A stretch of 37,229 nucleotides of DNA from an uncultured Microcaldota archaeon (GTDB lineage Archaea; Micrarchaeota; Micrarchaeia; Norongarragalinales; Norongarragalinaceae), in NCBI GenBank assembly GCA_903893865.1, contig CAITNU010000073.1:1-37229 (forward strand), read 5' to 3'. Positions 12,629 to 28,972 of the stretch are shown piece by piece; position 1 is the first letter of the stretch; each line of letters opens with the position of its first letter. Under the pieces are notes generated by a model. It saw nothing but the letters and a program-made list of their open reading frames with translations, had not been told where the DNA came from and did no database searches. The translations under genes were made by a program, and so were the position numbers.

Positions 12629-14368
12629 TTAGTTTGGCACTAGTTGAGTGACCGCGCGAATCTCAGGAACAAGAGGAATCTTTACCGCCGGACGCCTGCC
12701 GTTTGACTGGTAGTTTTTTTCGTTTTCTTTCTGCTTGTTCGTATCGTCTTTACCGCCAAAGTCGAGTGCTCCCCACCAATTGCAGTTCGGGCGTATGCCG
12801 TCGTCATAAAAAATATAGTAAGCCGGGTGAAGCAAATCCTCAGAACTCCTTCCCAACCAATCTCCGTAACGCGTCAGCGAAACCGCGCGAATCGAACAAA
12901 AATAGGGATAACCGTGCGCTGCATCCGCACAGTAATGAATAACGGTTCCACTGTTGTCCACGCTGTGATCACGAGCCAAAAACTTTGGCGTGAACGTCGT
13001 AGCATTGCCGCGAATGTTCTTTATTTCAGAAGTATTCATCAAATCTGAAGTAAAATATTTTTGGTAAATTACTTGCCTCGTGTACGCGACGGTATAATCA
13101 TCGTAGTGCCGGGCGTCACTATGCGTGGCGATATCGCAATCGTAGATATCCCCCTCACAGAATGCGGCGTAAAAAGGTTCGTCAGGCAAACGCACGGCGC
13201 CGTAATAATAAATCCACGCGCCCACGCTCGTACTCGCAAGATACAACGCCTTGCCGACTCCGTTAACGCCGACGCTGCCTTCCAACGCGGAACGCGATGC
13301 CTCATCAACTCCAACAAAACCATAACCATTGTTGTTGCTAATCAACTGCGCCTGCGCCGCATCAATATTATTCGCCAAAACGTATTCCTGAATACCGTCG
13401 CCGTTACCTGTAATCGAATTACCGCTGAAAGTATTCGGCTGCACGCCGTGCACCGCATCCATTGAACTGCCCGGTTGAGAAACCGAAGACAAAACTGGAG
13501 TTTTATCGTACAACGTGTTCGGCGGAACGAAATTGGGAACAACTCCCGGAACGAAACTCTTTATACCCGCCTTAACGTTACCGTGAATATTGTTGTTGAG
13601 AATCTGGTTTCCTCCCGCTCGCTCAAGCAAAACACCTACCGCATTATCATGAATATTGTTGTTCCCGCCGATTACCTGACCCCCGCTCTTAACGAGTATG
13701 CCAACCGATTGTTTTCCCGGCGCAGTACCGTAAAACTCGCTGTTTTTGACCACGTTAGACGATCTGCCGTCCCATAATTCAAGCCCAGTATTATTGTTAT
13801 CGTAAAACTTTGAAGGACGACCGTCGTAAGCATCAACCAACGCGTTTTGACCGGTTATAACCAACCCCTTCGCGTTATCGTGGTAATAAACACCTAAAAT
13901 ATTCGCGTCGCCAGCAAACAACGACTCGACAACGAACTCTGCGGAACCCGAGACGTCGGCGTTAGTCAAATTGATTATGCCTCCAGGATAAACGATGACG
14001 TGGTAACCTTGACTTGAATTGGTTTGAACGACGCCGTTATCAACCGAAAACTTTCCCGCCTGCCAAACCTCGAGAGAACTCGGCGTAGTAAAAGTCAGCG
14101 TGCCCGTAACATCAAGCCAACCACCGTGAATCACGTCCGCGTCACCAGTTACGAACGCGTTCCCGCTGCACTGCAAGTGAAAATCGAGTTCCCCACGAAC
14201 GTCATCGCAGGTAACCTCCGTCGTCTTAAACCCGGAATCGGCCAATGCTTTTTGGGCTGGCACTCGCGCCGCTTGAGCTTCAGGAACTAATGCGACTAAA
14301 AGTAGTAGCGCAACGAAAACCGTTGCAACAACGAATTTACTGGAATTGACTCGCGCCTTCAAAAACAA
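12629..14368 (-). CDS. Secreted right-handed beta-helix (NosD/PbH1-like) protein, paralog 1
   Basis: Signal peptide VVATVFVALLLLVALVPEAQA; repeats such as GNNNIHDNAVGVLLERAGGNQILNNNIHGNVKAG; ends RPNCNWWGAL...; no C-terminal TM. Confidence 0.85.
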   Translation of the reverse strand: MFLKARVNSSKFVVATVFVALLLLVALVPEAQAARVPAQKALADSGFKTTEVTCDDVRGELDFHLQCSGNAFVTGDADVIHGGWLDVTGTLTFTTPSSLEVWQAGKFSVDNGVVQTNSSQGYHVIVYPGGIINLTNADVSGSAEFVVESLFAGDANILGVYYHDNAKGLVITGQNALVDAYDGRPSKFYDNNNTGLELWDGRSSNVVKNSEFYGTAPGKQSVGILVKSGGQVIGGNNNIHDNAVGVLLERAGGNQILNNNIHGNVKAGIKSFVPGVVPNFVPPNTLYDKTPVLSSVSQPGSSMDAVHGVQPNTFSGNSITGNGDGIQEYVLANNIDAAQAQLISNNNGYGFVGVDEASRSALEGSVGVNGVGKALYLASTSVGAWIYYYGAVRLPDEPFYAAFCEGDIYDCDIATHSDARHYDDYTVAYTRQVIYQKYFTSDLMNTSEIKNIRGNATTFTPKFLARDHSVDNSGTVIHYCADAAHGYPYFCSIRAVSLTRYGDWLGRSSEDLLHPAYYIFYDDGIRPNCNWWGALDFGGKDDTNKQKENEKNYQSNGRRPAVKIPLVPEIRAVTQLVPN

Positions 14369-14377
14369 AAACCCTCC

Positions 14378-16385
14378 TCAAGCAGGCGGGTTGGTAACCG
14401 CGTTGAGTTCGGGAACTGAATCGATTTTTACTGCCGGACGCTTGCCGCTTTGTTGTGGGAGTAACGGAATTTCCGCTTCTTGCTTATCCTGTTTGTTCAA
14501 GTTGTCGCCTTTGTTTTTTTCGTATGCAAAAGTGAGCGCGCCCCACCAATTGCAATTCGGGCGTACGCCGTCATCATAAAAAATGTAATAACGCGGCATG
14601 GATGGCAACGCTTCTGAAGTCTTTCCCAGCCAATCGCCGTAACGCGTCAGCGAAACCGCTCTAATCCTGCACACGTAAGGATAACCATGCGCCGCATCCG
14701 CACAATAATGAATGACTGTTCCGCTGTTGTCCACGCTGTGGTCGCGAGCCAAAAACTTTGGAGTAAACGTAGTAACGTTGCCGAGAATGTTCCTCATTTC
14801 TGAAGTGTTCTTTAAATCCGAGTAAAAATACGCTGTTGGGTTTGAAACCTGACGGGTGTAAGCTATCGTGTAGTCATCGTAGTGACGCGCGTCGTTATGC
14901 GTTCCACCCAAGCAGTCTATATCTCCCTCGCAAAAAGCGACGTAAAACGGTCCGTCAGGCAACTGAACAAAACTATCGTAATAAATCCACGCGCCCACGC
15001 TCGTGCTCGCGAGATACAACGCCTTGCCGACTCCGTTGATGCCGACGCTGCCTTCCAACGCTGAACGCGGCGCTTCATCGATTCCAACGAAACCATAACC
15101 GTTGTTGTTCGCAACCAACTGCGCTTGCGCTGCATCAATGTTGTTCGCCAAAACGTATTCCTGAATACCGTCACCGTTCCCCGTAATCGAATTACCGCTA
15201 ATCGTATTTGGCTGCACGCCGTGCACCGCATCCATTGAACCGCCAGACTGAGAAACCGAAGACAAAACAGGAATCTTATCGTTTTCATACAACGCTTGCG
15301 GAGGAACGAAATTCGGAACAACCGCAGGCACAAAACTCTTTATGCCCGCCTTAACGTTACCATGAATATTGTTGTTGAGAATCTGGTTTCCTCCAGCGCG
15401 CTCAAGCAAAACCCCTATCGCATTATCATGAATATTGTTGTTCCCGCCGATGATTTGGTTACCGCTCTTAACGAGTATTCCGACCGCTTGTTTTCCAGGA
15501 GCGGTTCCGTAAAACTCGCTGTTCTTTATCACGTTGCCAGAACCGCCGTCGAGCGTAATTCCAGAATCGTTGTTGTCGTAAAACGTTGAACCATCAACAA
15601 TCACGCCTTGGCTCATCAAACGCAAACCTTGCTCGTTATCGTGATAATACACGCCTTGAATCGTGATTTCAGTGAGAGGCGGAGCGACAAACCCTTGAAC
15701 GATGAATTCAGCCGCGCCGGAAACGTCAGCGTTAGTCAAGCTAATGCTCGCGCCCGGGTGAACGAAAATGTGGTAACCTCCGTCGCGAGTGTCACGCGTT
15801 TTGCGCGCCGAGGCCGTTTCCGCTAAAAGCACGTCGCCGTTGTCAACCGTGAATTTCCCACTCCACACGTCAAGAGAATACGGGCCCGTAAAAGCAAGCG
15901 CACCAGTAGTAGTGACAGTGCCAGTGACTTCAAGCCAACCGCCGTAAACCAAGCTCGTCGATCCAGTTACAACCGCGTTACCAACGCATTGCAAATGGAA
16001 ATTGATTTCCCCCGTGAATATCGCTGCAAACAACATCGCGCTTTTTCTGTTTTGAAGGTTCGACGCGATTAGAATTGGACGCCGCAGTTATTTCCGAATC
16101 AATTTTCGAGTCACTCTTCGAGTCAATTTTCTGCGCTGGAACCCGTTTGACTTGCGAAAAAGGCGAGTCGCTCGAAATTTGGACGGCTTGCGAAAACTGC
16201 GGAGTATCGATTTTGGGAGCCTGCAGCGCCTGAGCGTCAGAAATCGGTGAATCGATTACAAGCGTTTTTTGCGCTTGCACCCGCGCCGCTTGAACTTCGG
16301 GAACAAAAGCGATTAAAGCAGCTAAAAGTAGGAGCGCAACGAAAACCGCCGTAGCGGCGAACTCAAATTTTTTACGCGTTTTCAC
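14378..16385 (-). CDS. Secreted beta-helix protein, paralog 2, interrupted by a +1 frameshift at a G homopolymer
   Basis: Signal peptide and N-term lie in ORF 15978-16385 (MKTRKKFEFAATAVFVALLLLAALIAFVPEVQAARV...DVVCSDIHG); the rest is in ORF 14378-16036 (TGEINFHLQCVGNAVVTG...). Removing one G at 16009-16013 restores DIHGEINFHLQC, matching paralog 1 DVRGELDFHLQC. Confidence 0.88.
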
Positions 16386-16647: not shown

Positions 16648-16666
16648 GGCGCGTTTTCAACGCGCC
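16648..16666. terminator. Hairpin GGCGCGTT-TTC-AACGCGCC overlapping the stop of the 2120-aa gene
   Basis: Perfect 8-bp stem, 3-nt loop; function as terminator is inferred. Confidence 0.4.
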
Positions 16667-19600
16667 TGCTTTTTCTTTTTGTTGTAGCGCGCCAAGTAAA
16701 CGAAGATGCCTAACGCCGCGAGCACAACTAAGACTAACGGCAAGTCTGGGAAGCGTGAGGGCGGATTCGGCAAGACGTTGAAAGTGCACGACGAACTCAA
16801 GTCGCCGACTCCTGGCGCTGCTCCCGTGTGCGCGGTTAAATCGACTTTGTAAGTGCCTTGAATGGGAGTGTCAACCTTGAAAACGTTGTAGCCGACATAA
16901 TCGCACGAATCAGGTGTGGTAAGCACTGTCGGCGTGGCTTGAGGATCCGGGTTTGTTATCGTGAACGTCCAACCATTATCGCTGTCTAGGCCTAGACACT
17001 TCGGTTCCCCTTTCACGACGAGGTATCCGGTGACATTCGTGGTGTTGCCGAGAACCAAGCTCGTCGGGCAAACCGCGCTCAAGAAAGAAACCTCGGACGG
17101 GAAGTAAGTAGGTTCGGGTCCTACTCGCGTCTCAGCAGTGCAGGACGCGGGAAATTGACCTACTTGAAGCGGTATTTCCACGTCAGCAGTGTAGCTTCCA
17201 ACTTCTCCAGGGTACTGGCAAGGCGCCTCAAAAATAAGGTTGGATGGAACCCTAAATTGCAACCAGTTTCCAACTCCTCTTGCGCAAGTGTACGTTCCTT
17301 CTTTACCAGCGTAGTTGCCGTTTGGGTCGAAGGTAACACTCATCGTGTTAGTTAAAACCGGAGGATAGAGATTTTGCGGGTCGAGCGTAATCTCGCAACC
17401 GTAATTATGTAATGCGTCGATAGTTATTTCAGTTGTTGTCGAGCTGGTGATGTCCGTGAGAAGAGAGCTGCAAATGCGTCCATCTGGTCGGTTCACGCAC
17501 GCAGTCACGTTGTATTTGTTGTACAAGACTTCATTGTCGACGTTCGTTTTTTGATCGTATTGAATCGTTTCGTTAACCGGCGTAAACCCAGTCGCGTTAG
17601 TATTCGCCGTAAAATTCGTGCCGTGGAAAATTGGGGCACCCGAAGGAGGAATCGGAGCCGGATTTGAATACGATTGAGCGGGCATGATTTCGACTGCCGC
17701 ATTAGGAACGTCCACGTCATCCCTATACTTTACGTGCACGTTGTGGTACCACTCGCGCGTCACCGTCGACTCGGCATCCGTGACAATATGTGCCTTGTCG
17801 TGAACATTCTGCGGAATTCCCGAATCAAGAACAATGTTGCTCAGAGAGTAATGCTCTCCATAAACCGCTTTGTTGTTTCCGCTCGTTTCATCGAACACAT
17901 TTGAAGTCAACTTGTTTTGAGAAGATGAGTCGAACGCTACTCCAAGTGATTGGTCGTCCGGATAAATAAATTTGTTGAGCTTGATCTGGTTGTTGGTTGA
18001 CGAATCAGTTAAATAAAGCGCGTGGGCTGGATTGGCAGCACCAGCTGGTCTCTTGACTGTAATCGTGTTTCCTTCGATTTGCGCGTTGTTCACTCCCTGC
18101 AAAATCAATCCGTTTGGAGTATTGCTGATAGTGTTGTTTGTGAATACGGCGTTAGCTCCTTGCAGGTAAATGCCTCGCGCCTGGCCGCTCGGCGCTGCGT
18201 CGTAACCAACGCTGCTGACGTCATTGTTTTCGAAATCGATTTTGCCGTAAACTTGGAACAAGTAAGCGGGAGCTTGGCACCCCCCAACGCAAGAGCCCGA
18301 TTGAATAACCGAGTGCTGCGGCACACTTGGATTTAAATTCTTGACAGTAAAGGTTCCAGTCGTGTCGACAAATATTTTGCTGCTGCCGTCAACAGTCGGC
18401 ATCATTTGCAGCGTGACGTTGCTGAAAATCAGGATTCCCGCGATGTTGACGTTGCCGTCTGACGGCATCGGAATCGTCCGGTCGCGGCAGTATTGCATCG
18501 CGCCAAACGGAATAGTCCAGTTCGCGTTGGTGGCACTAGAGGCGGGCGGGTTACAGTTTTCTACTAGCTTGTGAAGGGTGACGGTGGTGTTCGCGGAAAG
18601 TTTCTTGCCGTTCGGAGCAATACCGAAAACGCTCGGGTGATACATCACTTCGCCGTCTTCAGGACCGTAAGAGCAAGGCAAAGTGTTAACATATCCTGGC
18701 GGCAATATAGTGACTTCAGGCCATTTTTCCCCGCAACTCATTTTAACTTCGGTTGGCGGCGAACTCATGCCTGAAAACGTTGCGGTAATGTTGCTCTGAA
18801 ATATGTAACCTTCTGGCGGGTAAGCATAGATTTCGACGTTCGGCGCGTCGCGAACCACTTGAAAACTCGACATACTGCTGTCATGGTAGGCATACTGCCC
18901 GTAACTGCAGTTGTAGTGCACGCTGTAATTGCCGAGATCCAAAGGCGGCGCCGTCGGCGCAGGGGCTTTGTAAACGTTTCCAGTAGTACGCGGCAACGGA
19001 ATTGAATACCACGTTTGCGGCGAAATGCCTGGGCTGAATTCAACCGCTTTAGCGTAGTACGCTTTGCAGTTACACGGGGGACTATTGTACGGAGGCGTCG
19101 GCGTAGGCACTATCGTGGGTTGTCCTCCGCCGAAATACGGCAGTACGTCCTCGGTCACAAATGAATCCAAAACGTTTTCTTTGTACTTGGCGTAGAAAAC
19201 GAGTTCGAGCTGAGCATTCTCGTTCTTAGCTAACTCTTTCAAGTCGAAGCCAAGCTTGCTCAAAGCATCGGGAACCTTTGTGACGGCAACGCGCATAACG
19301 CCGTCCTCAAAAGAAAGCGATTTTGATTCCGGAGCCTCTTCGATACCTTTTATGACAATGCCTCCGCCGCTTACGCCGCCTTCAACATTCGGTCCTTCAA
19401 TGAATTCTGGCGGAACGTCGTAATCATGGTAAGTAAGTCCGTCAGTTGATATTCTAAACATGAATTGGTAAAACGGTTTAACGCTTCCGTCAGTCACCCA
19501 CTCTTTGTCAGGGTCGGAAAAGTCGGCTGTGACGTCCACCCGCGGGTCGGAAACGCGTACGCTATTAGAACCGAATGTGAACGAACTGCCTGGTTGTATG

Positions 19601-22600
19601 TCCGCAAATATTATGCCGCCGCTCGCTAAACTCAGCGTAGGCGTGTGACCAGCGAGGTTGCACGACGTGCATTGCTGCGTCGTGTTCGCGTAGTGGACGA
19701 CGCAAGTAAGCGAGAAATTGAAGGGAGTAGCGACTTCCTGCTGATTCCAAGGATTGTAGTTTCCCATCGTAAGGTAATCCCCATTCGGGTTGTCGTAAAT
19801 CGTCTTTTGATCTTTTAATTGGAATCCGCCTTGGTTTAAGTTCATGCTCGCGGTTGCAGTGAACGGCGTGGGACTGCCGACTTGCGGGTAAAAACACGTT
19901 GTTTCGGCGTAACCGTTGTTGCCGTTCCACGTCAATATTACGACGCTTGCAGTCTGTCCGTTGTCGCAATCGAACATTACTGGACTCGAATGAAACGCAA
20001 CCGGAATATCGGTGACTGAAGCGTTGAGCCTGCTTGGAAACAGTCCAACGCCAACGTTAGGCACCGCATCAAGCGTAATTTGCGCTGAACCGGTAGACGT
20101 TTTAAACGACATAACGGGGGTAACCGCGGTTCTCGAGTAGCGCGAGCAGTAGAAGTAATGATTGTAAACCTTGTTCGCCACCAGTTGGACGCGCCCGCTG
20201 TAATACGGCGGGTGGTTTAATCCGCCGCCTGTTGTGAGGTTCAAGGTAACTTCATTCCAACTGACGATTGAGTTCGTTAGCCGGTAATACGCTTTACACG
20301 CGCAGTCGCTTAATGATGCTCCGCTGCTTATATCGAGCGCGTAGCAAGATACGTTGAAGTCGACCGCAGCGGGAACGAGCGAGTTGTCGACCGGAGTCCA
20401 ATCGCGTAACGCGAGATCGCCCGGATAACTATTCACCCACGCCCACGCCTTCAAAGGCGGGTCAAAATCGTACCACTCATTGTTAATAATTTTGTATACG
20501 TGCACACTCGCGTTGTAATCAGTTGGCTGCGACGGTTCAGGATAAACACAAACAGCGTCTACGCTCGCGAAGGTAGAGCCATTGCTATACTGCTGAATGA
20601 TGCTTGGAGAAATATAACGCACGTAGTAATTGGTGGCGGTGTCGTTCGTGCAAAAAAACACTGCAACGTAGTCCATAGTCGGGTCCAGTTCGTAGACCGA
20701 AGCTATTAGGTCGGAAGAGAACTCGCCGTAACCGAATGATGGCACCGCGGTTAACGTGACGTTCGGCGGGCTCACGACGGTAACGTTCGGGCTCACAAGC
20801 GAACCCATTTTAGTGTAGTTGCTGGCGTTAACGTAACTGTAATTGCAGTATGTGTTAGTCGGGAATACGCCGAGGCTATTCGTGGAAACGTTGAATTGCA
20901 CAACCCACGATTCGTTTAAAATTATTAAGGGGTGAGAGCACTTTAGAGTCTTTCCGACAGCGTTATAGCTGCAGTCAGACGGCACGGGACCATTGAACTG
21001 CATGTTCGTTGGAATCGCGTCGACTATTTGGGCGTTAGTCGCCACGACGTTGTTTAACTCTATAGAAATGTTAGCGAATATTGCTGCGAGTTGCGCTGCA
21101 TTCGTAGTATTATAGTATCTGCCGCCAGTGTTGTTAGCGATTTGCCGCAATAAAGTCTGATTAACAGAAGCGCTGAAACCAATAACATAGATTGGAACAC
21201 GTGCGGCGGCAGCAGTGAGCGACGCGCTTAACGCGTAAGCGGTCGCGTAAGTTTCGTTTCCGATATCGCAGCTCGTCGAGCCTTGGGCTTGCGGACAATT
21301 TGGTTTACCGTCCGTAAACAAAATAATAAAAGGCAGTCGCTGTGGGCGAGTCGATTGCAGGATGTGGTTTAAAGAGTAAAGGATTCCATCGCCGATGTTC
21401 GTGCCCGGTCGGGTGGAAATAAGGGAAGCTATTGAATTATTTACTTCTGCTTGGTTACTAGTCAGTTGTCTATTGAGGATTGCGGTGCCACCGAAAGACA
21501 CTAGGCCAACGCGGTCGTACGAGGGATTGCTTGCATTTACAAAAGTGTAGCCCGCGTTCCTGAGATCAGCTAAGTAATCATCCATAGATTCAGAAACATC
21601 AAAGGAGAGCATGACGTCTAGGAGATTTCTATAAGATCGAGGGTCGCCAGCGCCGGTTAAGTTTATTGTCAAGGTAACGTTCTGTCCTTGGTAAACGCGG
21701 CTAGGCGAAGCCGTCTTGTTCGCGTCAAGATAAGAGCCGTTCGACGCCAGTCCACCCGCGTATTGCGATATGATAACTTCGCGATACAAAGGAATGTTCG
21801 TGTAATAGCCTATATTAGTCCATTTCACCACGTGCGTGTGTATGCTATCAGAAACGTTCGTATTACCATTACTACCACAGTGGGATACGGTACTGCTTGA
21901 TGCAGGGGTAGTAGCTCGCACCTCGTCATGAGTGTGAGAGTCGGAGCCGCCGGCCAGAGGCAGGTAAGTGTCGCTACCTCGCAAAAATCTGTTGTAAAAC
22001 GGGGCGCCGTCATAAGTGGACCTGGGAACCCAAGCATTAGGATTAGTAGGATAATCGGTAAACATCGCGAACATGCCTATTGGAATATCGCCACTACTTG
22101 AAAGCTTTGCAAAAGTGACGTTAGTGTACAGCGGTAAGTTGCTACTCGGCAGCGTAGTCGCGCGCACATAGTCAGTGTCGTGGAGATGCGAATCAGAAGC
22201 TCTGCCTAAACCCGAACCGCTTGTAGAAACAACGCCTACTACGTCACGTGAGAAGCTAGCGTCTAGAGTGTGGGAATGAGTTTCTGAACCGCCAGTACTG
22301 CCCGCGTCGCTTCCGCCCATAACAAAAAACCCGTTGTTTTGCTGCGAGTAAGCAGTCCAACCGTCTGGAATGCTTTCAAACATTGCGATTACACCAGCTG
22401 GAAGCGGGGTAGTAGTAGGTATTCCAGGCTTGTACATAATTAATTTTAGCTTACGGTAAGGAGGATTGTCGCCAGCTGAAGAAAAAGTTCCGGAAAGACT
22501 AGCATGAGTATGAGCACCAGAAGCGGTGTTAGCTAGGTAGCCGGACTCACACGGATTGGTCGCGCTTGGGCCAGACATTGAAACACTGAAAGTGTGAGTG

Positions 22601-23019
22601 TGACCTAAAGATAAGTCGGTACCGTGAACATTGTTTATGCTAGTTCCACCGCGAGGAAAAAGATTATAAAACGGATCACCCCGATTACAAGAAATACACT
22701 CCCAGTCATTACCTAAAAGCCCGACATCGCCATCGTAAAAAAATATCATGCAAGGCTGATTTTGACAGTCAGAGATTGACGTGAAGCTGAGTTCGCTCGG
22801 CGTCTTCAACAAATCGGCTTTGCCTGCAACGGGAAGACTGACTTCCGCATTACTGATGACCGCACCGCCAGCGGCGTTGCTGGCTGGCGTTAAAAACCTG
22901 TTCGCCGCAACGAGCGCGAGCACAATCAGGAGAACGAAAAAAAGTTTTTGAAAGTTTTTGAAGGCGCCGCCGCGCAAAACTCGCGAAGTTTTTGAACCCA
23001 AAACTTTTGTTTCACTCAT
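16657..23019 (-). CDS. Giant multidomain surface protein (2120 aa): three tail-fibre-like HxH repeats, VWA, Ig-like/Cys repeats, beta-helix, C-terminal anchor
   Basis: Signal/TM NFQKLFFVLLIVLALVAANRF; six HxH motifs in three repeats (21760-22758); VWA MIDAS DVSES...GTNIGDG...LFTDGKPN (about 21040-21630); beta-helix about 17850-18560; C-term LPNPPSRFPDLPLVLVVLAALGIFVYLARYNKKKKQAR. Confidence 0.85.
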   Translation of the reverse strand: MSETKVLGSKTSRVLRGGAFKNFQKLFFVLLIVLALVAANRFLTPASNAAGGAVISNAEVSLPVAGKADLLKTPSELSFTSISDCQNQPCMIFFYDGDVGLLGNDWECISCNRGDPFYNLFPRGGTSINNVHGTDLSLGHTHTFSVSMSGPSATNPCESGYLANTASGAHTHASLSGTFSSAGDNPPYRKLKLIMYKPGIPTTTPLPAGVIAMFESIPDGWTAYSQQNNGFFVMGGSDAGSTGGSETHSHTLDASFSRDVVGVVSTSGSGLGRASDSHLHDTDYVRATTLPSSNLPLYTNVTFAKLSSSGDIPIGMFAMFTDYPTNPNAWVPRSTYDGAPFYNRFLRGSDTYLPLAGGSDSHTHDEVRATTPASSSTVSHCGSNGNTNVSDSIHTHVVKWTNIGYYTNIPLYREVIISQYAGGLASNGSYLDANKTASPSRVYQGQNVTLTINLTGAGDPRSYRNLLDVMLSFDVSESMDDYLADLRNAGYTFVNASNPSYDRVGLVSFGGTAILNRQLTSNQAEVNNSIASLISTRPGTNIGDGILYSLNHILQSTRPQRLPFIILFTDGKPNCPQAQGSTSCDIGNETYATAYALSASLTAAAARVPIYVIGFSASVNQTLLRQIANNTGGRYYNTTNAAQLAAIFANISIELNNVVATNAQIVDAIPTNMQFNGPVPSDCSYNAVGKTLKCSHPLIILNESWVVQFNVSTNSLGVFPTNTYCNYSYVNASNYTKMGSLVSPNVTVVSPPNVTLTAVPSFGYGEFSSDLIASVYELDPTMDYVAVFFCTNDTATNYYVRYISPSIIQQYSNGSTFASVDAVCVYPEPSQPTDYNASVHVYKIINNEWYDFDPPLKAWAWVNSYPGDLALRDWTPVDNSLVPAAVDFNVSCYALDISSGASLSDCACKAYYRLTNSIVSWNEVTLNLTTGGGLNHPPYYSGRVQLVANKVYNHYFYCSRYSRTAVTPVMSFKTSTGSAQITLDAVPNVGVGLFPSRLNASVTDIPVAFHSSPVMFDCDNGQTASVVILTWNGNNGYAETTCFYPQVGSPTPFTATASMNLNQGGFQLKDQKTIYDNPNGDYLTMGNYNPWNQQEVATPFNFSLTCVVHYANTTQQCTSCNLAGHTPTLSLASGGIIFADIQPGSSFTFGSNSVRVSDPRVDVTADFSDPDKEWVTDGSVKPFYQFMFRISTDGLTYHDYDVPPEFIEGPNVEGGVSGGGIVIKGIEEAPESKSLSFEDGVMRVAVTKVPDALSKLGFDLKELAKNENAQLELVFYAKYKENVLDSFVTEDVLPYFGGGQPTIVPTPTPPYNSPPCNCKAYYAKAVEFSPGISPQTWYSIPLPRTTGNVYKAPAPTAPPLDLGNYSVHYNCSYGQYAYHDSSMSSFQVVRDAPNVEIYAYPPEGYIFQSNITATFSGMSSPPTEVKMSCGEKWPEVTILPPGYVNTLPCSYGPEDGEVMYHPSVFGIAPNGKKLSANTTVTLHKLVENCNPPASSATNANWTIPFGAMQYCRDRTIPMPSDGNVNIAGILIFSNVTLQMMPTVDGSSKIFVDTTGTFTVKNLNPSVPQHSVIQSGSCVGGCQAPAYLFQVYGKIDFENNDVSSVGYDAAPSGQARGIYLQGANAVFTNNTISNTPNGLILQGVNNAQIEGNTITVKRPAGAANPAHALYLTDSSTNNQIKLNKFIYPDDQSLGVAFDSSSQNKLTSNVFDETSGNNKAVYGEHYSLSNIVLDSGIPQNVHDKAHIVTDAESTVTREWYHNVHVKYRDDVDVPNAAVEIMPAQSYSNPAPIPPSGAPIFHGTNFTANTNATGFTPVNETIQYDQKTNVDNEVLYNKYNVTACVNRPDGRICSSLLTDITSSTTTEITIDALHNYGCEITLDPQNLYPPVLTNTMSVTFDPNGNYAGKEGTYTCARGVGNWLQFRVPSNLIFEAPCQYPGEVGSYTADVEIPLQVGQFPASCTAETRVGPEPTYFPSEVSFLSAVCPTSLVLGNTTNVTGYLVVKGEPKCLGLDSDNGWTFTITNPDPQATPTVLTTPDSCDYVGYNVFKVDTPIQGTYKVDLTAHTGAAPGVGDLSSSCTFNVLPNPPSRFPDLPLVLVVLAALGIFVYLARYNKKKKQAR

Positions 23020-23160
23020 TAGCCTCGCCTCCCAAATACCGAAATAAAACTTTAATAAAACTTTTAGTAACGCGATTGCTCAAAGCGGTTCGAAAAGCCT
23101 TTTCCCAACCCTAGAAAAAAGGAGTTCGACGAGAAAACCACGAACACAATATGCTCTAAT

Positions 23161-23171
23161 TATATTTAAAT
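23161..23171 (-). promoter_or_regulatory. Putative TATA box for the 2120-aa gene
   Basis: Minus strand ATTTAAATATA inside a segment conserved with the upstream region of the 971-aa gene. Confidence 0.6.
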
Positions 23172-23307
23172 AAGTGCCGTCGCGCCATTCGAGATAAAAA
23201 CAAAAGAAAAAAAGCGAAAAACGAAAAAAAGCGAAGAAAAAAGCGCGGAAAAAAGCGAGCCTCGAATACGCGCGTTGTCAACGCTTTTTCGTTTTTCGAC
23301 ACATCAC

Positions 23308-26223
23308 TTATTTTTTCTTTTTGTTGTAGCGCGCCAAGTAAACAAAAACTCCTAATGCCGCGAGCACCACGACGATTAACGGCACGTCCGGGAATTGCGA
23401 GGGCGGGTTAGGCAAAACGGTGAAAGAACAAGATGAAGACAAGGAGATAATTTCTGGAAGCAGAGGATCGTTTGGATAAGCCACTAAATCAACCGTGTAA
23501 CGCCCTTTGTCCGGAGTGCCAACAATGAAAACATTGTTTCCACCAACGCAGCCCGATTGGGGAACAATTCCCAATATGCTAATAGTGGAATTCGGGTAAG
23601 TTAAATTGAACTGCCAGTTGTCAATGTTTGGTGGAATCAGGCAAGTAGGCGTCCCGTTAACTACGAGGAAACCGGTTACGTTCGTGCTCGAGCCGAGCAC
23701 GAGGCTCGTCGGGCAAACCGCGCTCAAGAAAGAAACGCCCGGAGGGTAAGACGGCGGTGTAGGCGGCGTGGGAGTTGGATTGTCGGTGACGGACGCGTTC
23801 GCGGAAAGCGCTTCACCGTTCGGCCCGACGGCTGAAACTCTGGTTTGATACGTTCTTGTTGAGGTAACGTTGGGATACGTGCAATTCTCTGTGTAAACGA
23901 AAGCCGACACTTGCAACATTGGTATCGTTTGCAGCGGGTTTTCCAGGCAGTCGAGGAGAACGTTGTTTGGTGAAATCGTCATATTCGAAAAAGTCGCAGT
24001 AAGGTTGCTTCTGAATATCCCAGTGCCTGTGCTTGGATTAGCGGTGAGTACAACTAGCGGCACCGGGCCGCCGTAAGTGTTGAAAAACCACGTGGGAGTC
24101 TGCACCGACAACGGGCGCCTCGAACAATTGAAGTACTCGTAAAACGTTGCTATCGGCAGGTTCTGGACTGTCTCGTGGTAATACGGTTCGCCACCGCTCG
24201 CGCCGCCGATCGAGTAAGCCAGCCGCAAGTGAACGGGATTTGGTGTCGTGTTGCTGCCGCTCCAGTAATAAGCCCAACAATCGCAATCCGCCAACGCTTT
24301 GCTGTCGTTTATTTCATCCGAGTAGCAAGTCGCCTTGAATTCAACTGACGAAGCGGGAACGAGAGCGCCGTTAACAGGCGCGGCATCGCGAATGCCTAAG
24401 GAGCGCGGGTAATCGCTTATCCACGTTTCATCGTAAACGTGGTTTGGCCCGCCGGGTCCGTTCGGACCGTACGATACGTTAACATTGGCTTTGTAGTCCT
24501 GGTTGGGCGGTTCTGCGACGAGCGGGTACGAGCAATTAAACGAAGCGTTCGCGAGCGTCTCGCCACCCCAGACTTGAGGGGAACTGACTTGAAACGGCGT
24601 TTGGCCGGATTGCCCGTTACCGCAATCGAATTCAGCGCGATACGAGCCTTCCGGCAAATCGTAAAACGAAGCATTTAACACGGAGTCAAACGGCCCGTAC
24701 CCCCACGACGGCTGGGCGACTAAAAGCGCGCGCGGCCTCGCGACGTAAACTATGGGGCTCAGCAGCGAACCGCTTTGCTGCGAGCCGTTTGCTGCAATGT
24801 AAGAATAAGCGCATTGCGCGTTAGTCGGAATGCGTCCGTGGCTTTCGGTCGAAACGTTGAACGAAATCAGCCACGACTCGCCCAAGGCTATCGAACCGCG
24901 AAAACACTTGAGCTTCTTGCTCGCAGCTTCGTAATCGCACTCGTGCGGCCACTCGTACGGCACCGGGCCTTGGAAGTCCACGTTAGCCGGAATTACGTCG
25001 ACTACGCTGATTCGCGTAGCCGCGCTGTTGAGTAATTCGACGGAAATGTTAAGGAATATTGCTGCGAGTTGCGCTGCGTTCGTCGTGTTATAGTATTTTC
25101 CTCCGCCGATGGCCGCGACTTGCCGGAGGAACGTCTCGTTCAAGTTGACGCCGTCGACGCCTAAGCCAATCACGTAAATCGACTGGTTTGCGTTTGCGGC
25201 AGCGCTCGCAGCGGCAATCACGTATGCGTAAGACTCGGGAGTCGGGTTGCCTTGGGGGTCGCCGTAAGGAACGTTCGGCATGCCGTCCGTCAGTAAGACA
25301 ATAACTTTCAAGGCGGAAGGGCGGCCGCGAATGCTCGCGAGTTCATTCGACGAAGCGTTTATAGCGTCGCCGATGTCCGTCAAGCCGTTAACGTACTGGT
25401 TGAGGCTTTCCAGCGAGTTGTTCACTTGCCAAAAGTTGTCCGTCAACTGGTTGTTGAGGTACGCGCTTTCGTTGAAAGAAACCAGTCCGACCTTGTCGAT
25501 CGACGAATTCAGGCTTTCTACAAAGACTTGCCCAGCGAATGTGGCGTTACGGAGTTTTGGTCCATTCATGGTGCCGGAAATATCGAGCGTCAGCATGCTG
25601 TCCAAATACCTCCTAACGGATGACGGAATGCCTGTGCCCGTAAAGTTTATCGCAACGGTGATGTTCTGCCCGATCAACACCCAGAGCGGCGAAGCCGCCT
25701 TCGACGCGTTCAAATAACGGTTGACTGGCGGAGTTGGCGAGGGACTCGGCGAAGGCAAAACGCTGGGCGACGGCAACGGCGAGGGACTCGGCGATGGAGT
25801 GCTAGTGACCGTGAAACTGAATTGAGGCGTGCCGCCGGAGGTTGTTCCGTAAAAGCACAGGTAGCCGACGTTGTAATTTCCGGGAGTGAGCGTCATCGGG
25901 TTGCTTCGGTAAACGTGGTCGGTCCTGAGGTATAACGTTACTTGCTTCGTGGTTCCGCCTCCGCTTGGCGCGTGCAACGCTTGACACTGGCATATAAGCG
26001 ACTCGTAAAACTGTCCGCCGTGGCTCCCGTCTTGAACGAAGCACCTGACTTCGAAAACGAACGGGTTCGAAACCACCGCGCCCGAATCGGGAAACCAATT
26101 CCGAGGTTCCACGGTTACGGCGTTAGCTAAAACCGAGAAGGAAAAAATCACGAGCAGCGCGATAAAACCTTTTTCGAGTACTCCGCGCGACGCGCTAGAA
26201 TCCAAAAATTTTGTTTCACTCAT
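23308..26223 (-). CDS. VWA-domain surface protein with Ig-like/Cys repeats and C-terminal anchor (971 aa)
   Basis: MSETKFLDSSASRGVLEKGFIALLVIFSFSVLANA signal; (PS)n linker; VWA LTLDISGTM...GLTDIGDAI...VLLTDGMPN; C-term FTVLPNPPSQFPDVPLIVVVLAALGVFVYLARYNKKKK. Confidence 0.85.
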   Translation of the reverse strand: MSETKFLDSSASRGVLEKGFIALLVIFSFSVLANAVTVEPRNWFPDSGAVVSNPFVFEVRCFVQDGSHGGQFYESLICQCQALHAPSGGGTTKQVTLYLRTDHVYRSNPMTLTPGNYNVGYLCFYGTTSGGTPQFSFTVTSTPSPSPSPLPSPSVLPSPSPSPTPPVNRYLNASKAASPLWVLIGQNITVAINFTGTGIPSSVRRYLDSMLTLDISGTMNGPKLRNATFAGQVFVESLNSSIDKVGLVSFNESAYLNNQLTDNFWQVNNSLESLNQYVNGLTDIGDAINASSNELASIRGRPSALKVIVLLTDGMPNVPYGDPQGNPTPESYAYVIAAASAAANANQSIYVIGLGVDGVNLNETFLRQVAAIGGGKYYNTTNAAQLAAIFLNISVELLNSAATRISVVDVIPANVDFQGPVPYEWPHECDYEAASKKLKCFRGSIALGESWLISFNVSTESHGRIPTNAQCAYSYIAANGSQQSGSLLSPIVYVARPRALLVAQPSWGYGPFDSVLNASFYDLPEGSYRAEFDCGNGQSGQTPFQVSSPQVWGGETLANASFNCSYPLVAEPPNQDYKANVNVSYGPNGPGGPNHVYDETWISDYPRSLGIRDAAPVNGALVPASSVEFKATCYSDEINDSKALADCDCWAYYWSGSNTTPNPVHLRLAYSIGGASGGEPYYHETVQNLPIATFYEYFNCSRRPLSVQTPTWFFNTYGGPVPLVVLTANPSTGTGIFRSNLTATFSNMTISPNNVLLDCLENPLQTIPMLQVSAFVYTENCTYPNVTSTRTYQTRVSAVGPNGEALSANASVTDNPTPTPPTPPSYPPGVSFLSAVCPTSLVLGSSTNVTGFLVVNGTPTCLIPPNIDNWQFNLTYPNSTISILGIVPQSGCVGGNNVFIVGTPDKGRYTVDLVAYPNDPLLPEIISLSSSCSFTVLPNPPSQFPDVPLIVVVLAALGVFVYLARYNKKKK
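25733..25803 (-). repeat. Low-complexity Pro/Ser linker coding repeat
   Basis: Encodes TPSPSPSPLPSPSVLPSPSPSPTPPVN. Confidence 0.8.
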
Positions 26224-26364
26224 ATGCTTCCCCTCAAATTAAATCGCTTGCGACGCGATTGCTCGAAAAAAGCGGTTCGAAAACCGGTTCGAAAAACCCT
26301 TCCCCGTTCCAACCAGCGAAAAACGAAAAAACGACGGTAAAACCACGAAGACAATATGCGCTAG

Positions 26365-26376
26365 TAATATTTAAAC
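26365..26376 (-). promoter_or_regulatory. Putative TATA box for the 971-aa gene
   Basis: Minus strand GTTTAAATATTA in a segment homologous to 23130-23180. Confidence 0.6.
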
Positions 26377-26443
26377 AAGTGCGGACGAGAGAAAAAAAAG
26401 GAAAAAAGCGCGCGCTTTCAACGCTTTTCTTTTTTCAACGCGC

Positions 26444-28972
26444 CTACCTTTTCTTTTTGTAGCGTGCGAGGTAAACGAAGACACCTAACGCTGCGAGCAC
26501 GACGAAGATTAACGGCACGTCAGGGAATTGCGATGGCGGGTTGGGCAAAACGGTGAAACGGCACCACGACGACAAGGGGCCTACGGCTGGGTCTCGGGGA
26601 TACGCGACTAAATCCACAGCATAAATTCCTTTATCGGGAGTTTCGACCTTGAAGACGTTGTTGCCATCTACGCAGCCGGGTTGGGGCTCTATGTTAAGCA
26701 CGCTCCATTTTCCATCCGGCGTGGTCAGGTTGAACTGCCAGTCGTCAACGTTCGGAGGAATCAGGCACTCTGGCGTCCCGTTCACTACGAGGTAACCAGT
26801 GACGTTCGTAGTCGAGCCGAGAACAAGGCTCTTAGGACAAATCGCGCTCAAGAAAGATTCGTCTGGCGGGTAAGAAGACGGCGTTGGCGGCACCGACGGC
26901 AAAACGCTAGGCAAAACAGAAGGCAGAATACTTGGACTGGGGCTGGGGGAAGGCGAAGAAGAAGGACTAGACGAAGGTGAAGGAGAAGGCGATGGGGAAG
27001 GAACTTGAGAAGAAGAAAGCAGTGGCGCGAAAACGCTGCCAAACTGCGTTATGTTCGCGTAAACATAGTTGTCCGCCGCGTTTACGCCGTGCGAACTGCT
27101 GAAGGACGCAGGGTCCGTGTTCCAAGCGCCGTTGTTGCGGGCAACGAATAGCGTGTTTTCGTCTCCGCCGTGCAAGTCTGAATCCGAGTAACTAAAGTTC
27201 AAAAACAACCAGGCATCATCCGAAAGAGGCAGTGCGTCAACGTATTTCGAAATGTTCGAGTAATCAGGCGGATCGTCTGGCGGATTGGAAACAGCGTTCA
27301 AGCCTATCGCGCCGTAATTCGTAAAATTGGTTTTCGTCGAGTAAAACCATTCGTCAACGAAGGTGTTGTTTGACGCCGCGCGGTCTATTAGAACGTCATA
27401 AGCGTCATAGGCGCCGTTAACACTGTTTCCGCTCGCGTTATTGCCAATAAAAATATTGTTTGACCCACCGTTAAGGTATGGATCTGATCCTTCATACAAC
27501 CAAAAACCCCCGTAGTTGCGAGTTACCGAATTGTTTTCGAAAACCGTGTCGTTTATCCAAGTTACTACGCCTGTGCCCGTTCCTCCTTTGCCTTCGGAAG
27601 GATTGTTGGGAATCATTTGGTTCAATCTACGCCGCACACCCATGTCCGACGTGCCGAAGCCGGATTCCGTGATTGAGTTGTTGACGAATTCGCCTCCTTC
27701 TCCTTGGTAGAGCCAGAGACCGTAAACAAAACAACTTCGAAACGTATTATTTGATACCAGCCAGTCGCGACCGCCAAAAGTGAGAAAACCAACTGGCGCG
27801 TTCTCGACCGCGTTGTTGGAAAAAGTATTCGTAGAACCCAAAACATAGAACGCCGCGACAGCGGAATTGTTGACCATGTTGTTTGAAAAAAGGTTGTTAG
27901 GCGAATAAACCAGGAAATCAATATTGGTATTGTTTTCAGCGGTATTGCGCGAAAAATTGCTTTCCTCGCTTTCAACGAAGAAACCGTTGTTGTTGCCTAT
28001 CGCCGTATTGTTAACGAAAACCGAAGAGTCTCCCCAGCTGTCGAAACCGACATTGCAGCCTGTAGCGGTATTGTTTTCTACCAGCGCATTAACGCCATTG
28101 ACGGCTAAACCAGCGGTGCCAGTCGAGTTAGAAACCATATTGTTAGCAACACTAGTATACGCGCCGCCCACGCTGATACCCGGCATATTTGATGCTCCGT
28201 CGACAATATTGTTGAAAACTTTATTGAATGCACCGCCAGTCATAATGCCGCCGTGCGGGCTATTGCTTACGTTATTGTAGCTGACGTTGTTATAGTCACC
28301 AGCAATGAAGAAACCAGAATCTGATTCTCGCACTTCGTTGAACGCGATAATCGAATTTGAACCAAAAAGCTCTACTGCTGGATAGTTGTGCAAGCAGGAG
28401 GCAAAAACGTTTCGTGTGATGCTAGAATGAGTGCAGCCGAAATAAGCTATGTCAATGCATCCGCTGTCGCCGCCAGCGTCGACTTCGAAATAATTGTCGG
28501 AAACAGAGCAGTAATCGCTTAAGGGCGCGTAGTGAATGAAAACGCCCCAGTCATTGCCGCCGGCTTCTGAAGTCAAAGTAAAAGAATTATTCGTTATATT
28601 CAGGTGCTCTACAGCAGCGTCACCAGCAACTCCAAATGAGCCAGCGCAATCTGTAGAATCACACACGATACGGCAGTTCTTTATCGCGATATTTTTCAGG
28701 CCACCGCTGTCCTTGTGCAAATAAACGCCTTTGCCGCTGCCGCCTCGCGCAAAATTAATATAGTAACCGCGACAGTCCAAAGCCACGCCGTCAGCTTTGA
28801 CGTAAAAACAATCACTATTGCTGCTAACGTTTTGAGTCAGGATATAGGTAGTGTGCGCCTCATCTAGATTGCCGCAAGCGCTGATAAAACGGTCGGACGC
28901 CGTCACCAAACCTGAAGCAAACAACAAAACCAATCCGGATAACGCCAAAACCAGCTTGACTTCACGCTTCAA
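26444..28972 (-). CDS. Beta-helix (NosD/PbH1-like) surface protein with Pro/Ser stalk and C-terminal anchor (842 aa)
   Basis: Signal LVLALSGLVLLFASGLVTAS; many N-rich beta-helix turns (NNVSNSPHGGIMTGGAFNKVFNNIVDGASNMPGISVGG); stalk at 26870-27010; C-term LPNPPSQFPDVPLIFVVLAALGVFVYLARYKKKR. Confidence 0.85.
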   Translation of the reverse strand: MKREVKLVLALSGLVLLFASGLVTASDRFISACGNLDEAHTTYILTQNVSSNSDCFYVKADGVALDCRGYYINFARGGSGKGVYLHKDSGGLKNIAIKNCRIVCDSTDCAGSFGVAGDAAVEHLNITNNSFTLTSEAGGNDWGVFIHYAPLSDYCSVSDNYFEVDAGGDSGCIDIAYFGCTHSSITRNVFASCLHNYPAVELFGSNSIIAFNEVRESDSGFFIAGDYNNVSYNNVSNSPHGGIMTGGAFNKVFNNIVDGASNMPGISVGGAYTSVANNMVSNSTGTAGLAVNGVNALVENNTATGCNVGFDSWGDSSVFVNNTAIGNNNGFFVESEESNFSRNTAENNTNIDFLVYSPNNLFSNNMVNNSAVAAFYVLGSTNTFSNNAVENAPVGFLTFGGRDWLVSNNTFRSCFVYGLWLYQGEGGEFVNNSITESGFGTSDMGVRRRLNQMIPNNPSEGKGGTGTGVVTWINDTVFENNSVTRNYGGFWLYEGSDPYLNGGSNNIFIGNNASGNSVNGAYDAYDVLIDRAASNNTFVDEWFYSTKTNFTNYGAIGLNAVSNPPDDPPDYSNISKYVDALPLSDDAWLFLNFSYSDSDLHGGDENTLFVARNNGAWNTDPASFSSSHGVNAADNYVYANITQFGSVFAPLLSSSQVPSPSPSPSPSSSPSSSPSPSPSPSILPSVLPSVLPSVPPTPSSYPPDESFLSAICPKSLVLGSTTNVTGYLVVNGTPECLIPPNVDDWQFNLTTPDGKWSVLNIEPQPGCVDGNNVFKVETPDKGIYAVDLVAYPRDPAVGPLSSWCRFTVLPNPPSQFPDVPLIFVVLAALGVFVYLARYKKKR

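Follow-up and report, generated by a model that had tools for sequence, protein, structure and literature searches.

A candidate single-chain form of the trimeric viral tail tip on an archaeal surface protein

In phage fibres, three HxH motifs make an octahedral iron site (PMC6116203), and in the DSLV2 virophage three consecutive collar proteins assemble as a heterotrimer (PMC12724248). We found neither a fused form of such a tip nor a cellular use of it described in the open-access literature, where three-gene heterotrimers are already known from DSLV2. Here we analyse a 2,120-aa surface protein encoded on the minus strand of the window, which is the whole stretch of 37,229 nucleotides studied. 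Its region from aa ~84 to 422 is likely to be a tail-fibre tip in a natural, single-chain and pseudo-trimeric form, carried by an anchored VWA/beta-helix adhesin and holding two stacked metal ions with 12 histidines. The fixed number of three copies, in this protein and in its relatives, is the main point of the analysis and is missing from the sequence-only reading that preceded it.

Repeats and architecture of the surface protein

The features of the protein, all on the minus strand, are the following:
16657..23019, minus: surface protein carrying the tip, 2120 aa (open frame from ATG)
22879..22965, minus: N-terminal signal-like hydrophobic segment, ~aa 19-47 (hydropathy scan)
22423..22770, minus: tip repeat 1, aa 84-199, HxH at aa 140 and 170 (profile matches and alignment)
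22594..22602, minus: HxH 1a, HTH, aa 140-142, proposed metal site I
22504..22512, minus: HxH 1b, HTH, aa 170-172, proposed metal site II
22096..22422, minus: tip repeat 2, aa 200-308, HxH at aa 248 and 278 (profile matches and alignment)
22270..22278, minus: HxH 2a, HSH, aa 248-250, proposed metal site I
22180..22188, minus: HxH 2b, HLH, aa 278-280, proposed metal site II
21754..22092, minus: tip repeat 3, aa 310-422, HxH at aa 362 and 394 (profile matches and alignment)
21928..21936, minus: HxH 3a, HTH, aa 362-364, proposed metal site I
21832..21840, minus: HxH 3b, HTH, aa 394-396, proposed metal site II
21073..21618, minus: VWA domain, aa 468-649, with a DVSES MIDAS motif (Pfam PF00092, E 3.9e-18; motif by reading)
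17887..18189, minus: beta-helix/NosD stretch, aa 1611-1711 (Pfam PF05048, E 2.7e-9)
16660..17097, minus: C-terminal domain with TM anchor and KKKK tail, common to the 971-aa and 842-aa proteins upstream (alignment and hydropathy)

The sequence-only reading had placed six HxH motifs at aa 140, 170, 248, 278, 362 and 394, with within-pair spacings of 30, 30 and 32, and had mapped aa 88-420 to 21760-22758; both are exactly right. Its repeat consensus fits repeats 2 and 3 well and repeat 1 less so, which is without P.G.I and reads QPCMIFFYDG...WECISC there, with HGTDLSLGHTHT standing where GGS..HTHT would be expected. The HxH motifs are far beyond chance in number: there are six, all inside 257 aa, and 2,000 shuffles of the whole protein gave a mean of 0.63 and a maximum of 4. 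A profile made of other proteins' repeats only finds the tip region at E 4e-56, against 0.27 for the best of the shuffled copies. The repeat is ~110 aa long, and its profile detects exactly three copies in the ORF, only 22-27% identical to one another.

The signal sequence, VWA domain and C-terminal TM anchor are together those of an archaeal VWA-type anchored surface protein, and the presence of VWA and beta-helix modules and a membrane anchor in the same protein, as read earlier from the letters, is borne out by Pfam (PF00092, PF05048) and hydropathy. The signal sequence would export the protein and the TM segment would anchor it. Because the signal-like segment is N-terminal and is followed by the VWA domain, the beta-helix stretch and the C-terminal TM segment, the tip repeats should be the outermost part. 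The C-terminal ~145 aa, TM segment included, align with those of the upstream 971-aa and 842-aa proteins. The three surface-protein genes are consecutive (16657-28972, minus strand), all with this one C-terminal domain, its TM segment and its basic tail, and the 2,120-aa and 971-aa proteins have identical start residues, MSETK. in both. Elsewhere in the window (12629-16036, minus strand), two adjacent beta-helix proteins of 579 and 552 aa have YYIFYDDG.RPNCNWWG in a common C-terminal segment and seem to have arisen by recent tandem duplication. The genome bin of the window measures 1.0 Mb and is 78% complete.

Kinship with viral tail tips

Direct searches with the window repeats gave no match in Pfam, PHROG, the PDB (phmmer) or phages (tblastn), and profile A1 gave only a chance match against the PDB. 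The repeats do not match the Pfam Collar family (PF07484), whose gathering score they do not reach; the viral bridge proteins likewise stay below this cut-off. The remote homology to tail-collar/short-tail-fibre tips that had been suspected was found through archaeal-virus tail tips. The profile of the cellular repeats aligns with these tips from end to end (hhalign 98.7%, E 3.5e-16, 108 columns), with HxH at matching positions and two HxH pairs also present in the virus tips. The archaeal-virus tips match the PDB tail fibres 9qgo (E 2.3e-18), 6ov6 and 9nxk, and T4 gp37 and gp12 weakly. By this whole-domain profile comparison, the window repeats are true relatives of the tail-tip (collar) domains of tailed viruses, and a viral origin of the cellular tip would be the simpler reading.

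Two viral settings are of particular use for comparison. A contig from the same archaeal class (G116) carries minor-tail and tape-measure genes together with three adjacent short genes matching tail-collar/short-tail-fibre PHROGs, and in the Methanosarcinales virus vir515 three 'tail protein' genes lie side by side, the tip of each having two HxH.

Three copies in cellular and viral relatives

The triple is also found in a 3609-aa ORF of the window's own genome, in G002, a genome of the same family, and in G007, where a contig end interrupts the first repeat yet three copies are visible. It occurs, too, in an Aenigmatarchaeota contig (L021), again interrupted by the contig end, in G374 and G383, which came from a phylum-wide search around that contig, and in G511 and G469. 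A fused triple is encoded as well on contig C11 of the G718 genome bin, which also encodes Mu-F-like head, capsid, neck and tail-sheath proteins and therefore belongs to a tailed virus. In this virus, an ADP-ribosyltransferase domain is fused to the Mu-F-like head protein (L136:1395-3695).

Across ten triples with a mean pairwise identity of 34%, 10 of the 12 histidine columns are invariant; one of the six HxH is lost in G374. In a tree, most repeats cluster with those of the same position (1, 2 or 3) from other lineages, which makes the triple old and inherited as a unit. Within G383 (L119:4213-5064) the three repeats are near-identical to one another in their cores and unlike at their starts, a pattern resembling homogenisation by gene conversion. 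The protein that bears them (L119:1390-5457) joins DUF2341 and LamG modules to an archaeal type IV pilin-like N-terminus (KGVSPIIAVILL), suggesting a pilus-borne version; across the relatives the modules are LamG, DUF2341, Ig-like and this one type-IV-pilin-like N-terminus. In G340, a 205-aa protein (L121:840-1454) combines a hydrophobic N-terminal segment with just one tip domain, which has three HxH, and is possibly a homotrimeric cellular version.

The copy number is three in all nine proteins counted (W, B, C, D, G374, G383, G511, G469 and G718), which are the eight cellular proteins with countable copies and the one tailed virus. Three copies are also present in 104 viral ORFs (25 clusters), gathered with the triple profile or Pas29 in a local search able to return two-copy and four-copy proteins too. 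The only apparent four-repeat ORF (L155) has its third repeat split into two HMM pieces, and the apparent two-repeat ORFs are contig-end cuts, single domains split in two, or the L195 gene. The last belongs to a 2+1 form, in which a two-repeat gene overlaps the one-repeat gene that completes it (L195:3431-5223, viral contig). In eight viral loci the tip domain takes the form of three adjacent genes (L009, L034, L039, L040, L042, L048, L066 and L113). Two-gene arrays of single tip domains also occur (L063, L064, L050, L160, L211 and L209/L210), and viral gene arrays are therefore not always of three.

The number of HxH per repeat is 2, 3, 4 or 7 between proteins and is equal or nearly equal across the three repeats of one protein, an agreement with permutation p<5e-5 over 32 clusters formed at 50% identity, units that are not fully independent. 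Three viral single-chain triples (L155, L159 and L162) have ~7 HxH per repeat (7, 7 and 6 in L155), which is the number reported for the T4 gp37 iron sites.

One chain probably in place of three

An AF2 run with the window triple first and four alignment rows gave a pLDDT of 32 and was discarded. The G511 triple, 36% identical to that of the window, was modelled from ten alignment rows with pLDDT 84.2 and pTM 0.78. Confidence is high in the linkers between repeats and low only in the HxH-HxH loops, and this relative's triple is predicted to fold as one compact unit. In Foldseek, the model found nothing in the PDB, and the whole unit matched models of Pas28 and Pas29 from phage phiAsp2 (E 2e-15, TMq 0.63), two proteins that each carry three repeats, with four HxH in every repeat.

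We favour a single-chain pseudo-trimer because the copy number is always three, three-gene and 2+1 forms exist, HxH counts match within proteins and the AF2 model is a confident single unit; the whole-unit match to Pas28/Pas29, the DSLV2 heterotrimer and the HxH iron site of phage fibres point the same way. Three tandem, diverged copies of a tail-collar/fibre-tip domain would fold together, all in one chain, to give a pseudo-trimeric fibre tip to which each copy contributes two HxH pairs. The first pairs, one from each copy, would together form one six-histidine metal site, probably for Fe(II), on the pseudo-threefold axis; the second pairs would form another site stacked on it, and in each copy the variable loops that separate the HxH pairs would offer a distal contact surface. 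The kinship with tail-collar tips that was proposed earlier is supported by profile homology and by HxH at matching positions, with one refinement: the HxH residues probably converge within one chain, not in a trimer of chains. Placed at the outer end of a VWA/Ig-like/beta-helix stalk, the tip may act as a receptor-binding adhesin of a Micrarchaeota-related cell, a role suggested by the architecture, with signal and anchor here and LamG, DUF2341, Ig-like modules and a pilin-like N-terminus in relatives. One chain, then, probably does the work of three and aids the cell in holding on to something. It is plausible, if somewhat short of probable, that a viral three-gene tip was fused into one polypeptide and captured by small-genome archaea, which carry it on anchored or pilus-like proteins as a metal-stiffened adhesin to partner cells.

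The repeats could instead be independent tips strung as beads, with three chains trimerising at each. T4 gp12, gp37 and R-pyocin fibres are homotrimers (PMC6116203), and single-copy tips do exist, in viruses and in one secreted G340 protein. We regard such beads as unlikely, since they leave unexplained the constant three copies per single chain, the 2+1 and 1+1+1 gene arrangements, and the confident AF2 fold of one G511 chain as a single unit with rigid linkers. Alternatively, the tip might serve as a structural cap or spacer stiffened by metal, or as a module that binds iron, rather than as a receptor-binding surface. The metal sites of phage fibres are thought to aid folding and stiffness (PMC6116203), and a role as marine iron ligands has been proposed for the HxH sites of fibres (PMC11705849). 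Recognition, however, fits better with a tip that lies outermost, is homologous to receptor-binding tips and has fast-changing loops between its HxH pairs, and the neighbours scanned showed no iron-uptake gene, so that this role too seems improbable.

That the domain family is viral, and that the same fused triple sits in the tailed virus of the G718 bin, could make the 2,120-aa gene a provirus gene for a virion tail protein. Its neighbours, however, are cellular (tRNA synthetase, adenylate kinase, initiation-factor and phosphoribosyltransferase genes and the surface-protein cluster), and on them a provirus reading of the window was rejected; the protein has a signal sequence, and a TM anchor in common with its neighbours, and the ORFs scanned included no virion gene, which leaves this origin extremely unlikely. 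Related tips on the virus-like G116 contig would also suit a decoy or competitor, occupying receptors on the cell or its partner against viruses with the same type of tail tip. We hold this to be very unlikely, as cellular tips are distant from viral ones (about 20-30% identity) with no sign of mimicking one virus, and relatives bear other adhesin-type modules (LamG, DUF2341) or a pilin-like N-terminus.

If the single-chain pseudo-trimer is correct, cells have reused a host-recognition tip of viruses, in small-genome archaea whose attachment to partners is poorly understood, and the protein is a clear example from nature of a trimer converted into a single chain, with metal sites per repeat that vary freely and a repeat number that stays three. 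The single-chain form is amenable to expression and structure determination on its own, so that iron content, receptor binding and partner recognition can be tested directly. The three-gene, 2+1 and fused viral tail tips suggest a reading as one family, of which the fused forms are at present outside Pfam and at best weakly covered by PHROGs.

Among known systems, the T4 gp12 and gp37 tips have in common with the window tip the Collar start P.GaI.MW, HxH motifs (in gp12 the metal-binding HKH 445-447) and a C-terminal return strand, but they are homotrimers with one tip per chain, and gp12 aligns with the cellular profile only over the P.GaI.MW stretch, its first ~25 aa. The 971-aa and 842-aa neighbours carry the same C-terminal anchor domain as the 2,120-aa protein, and the 971-aa protein a VWA domain as well, but both are without tail-tip repeats. 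Pas28 and Pas29 of the Actinoplanes phage phiAsp2 likewise have three tandem HxH tip repeats per chain and a predicted structure that matches the whole unit; they are phage tail proteins, with four HxH per repeat and about 21-24% identity. The tips of vir515 and the G116 contig (phrog_5795 / phrog_1800 type) agree with it in end-to-end domain homology, two HxH pairs, a PPYY...I.K end and three adjacent copies. Their copies are separate genes, however, and their domain is longer, with a GW..C.G collar motif after the P.G.I start that is lost in the cellular repeats, which have W...S or W.C.SC instead. The tripartite DSLV2 tail, like the window tip, has three paralogous gp37-like collar/tip domains, which in DSLV2 assemble 1:1:1 into one trimeric tip (PMC12724248). 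The window copies are likewise position-specific, clustering mostly by position, but unlike the three separate viral genes of DSLV2 they lie in one ORF, as three domains of a cell-surface polypeptide with two HxH pairs each. The most fitting description of the window tip is a heterotrimeric collar tip in a fused, single-chain variant, used on a cell surface.
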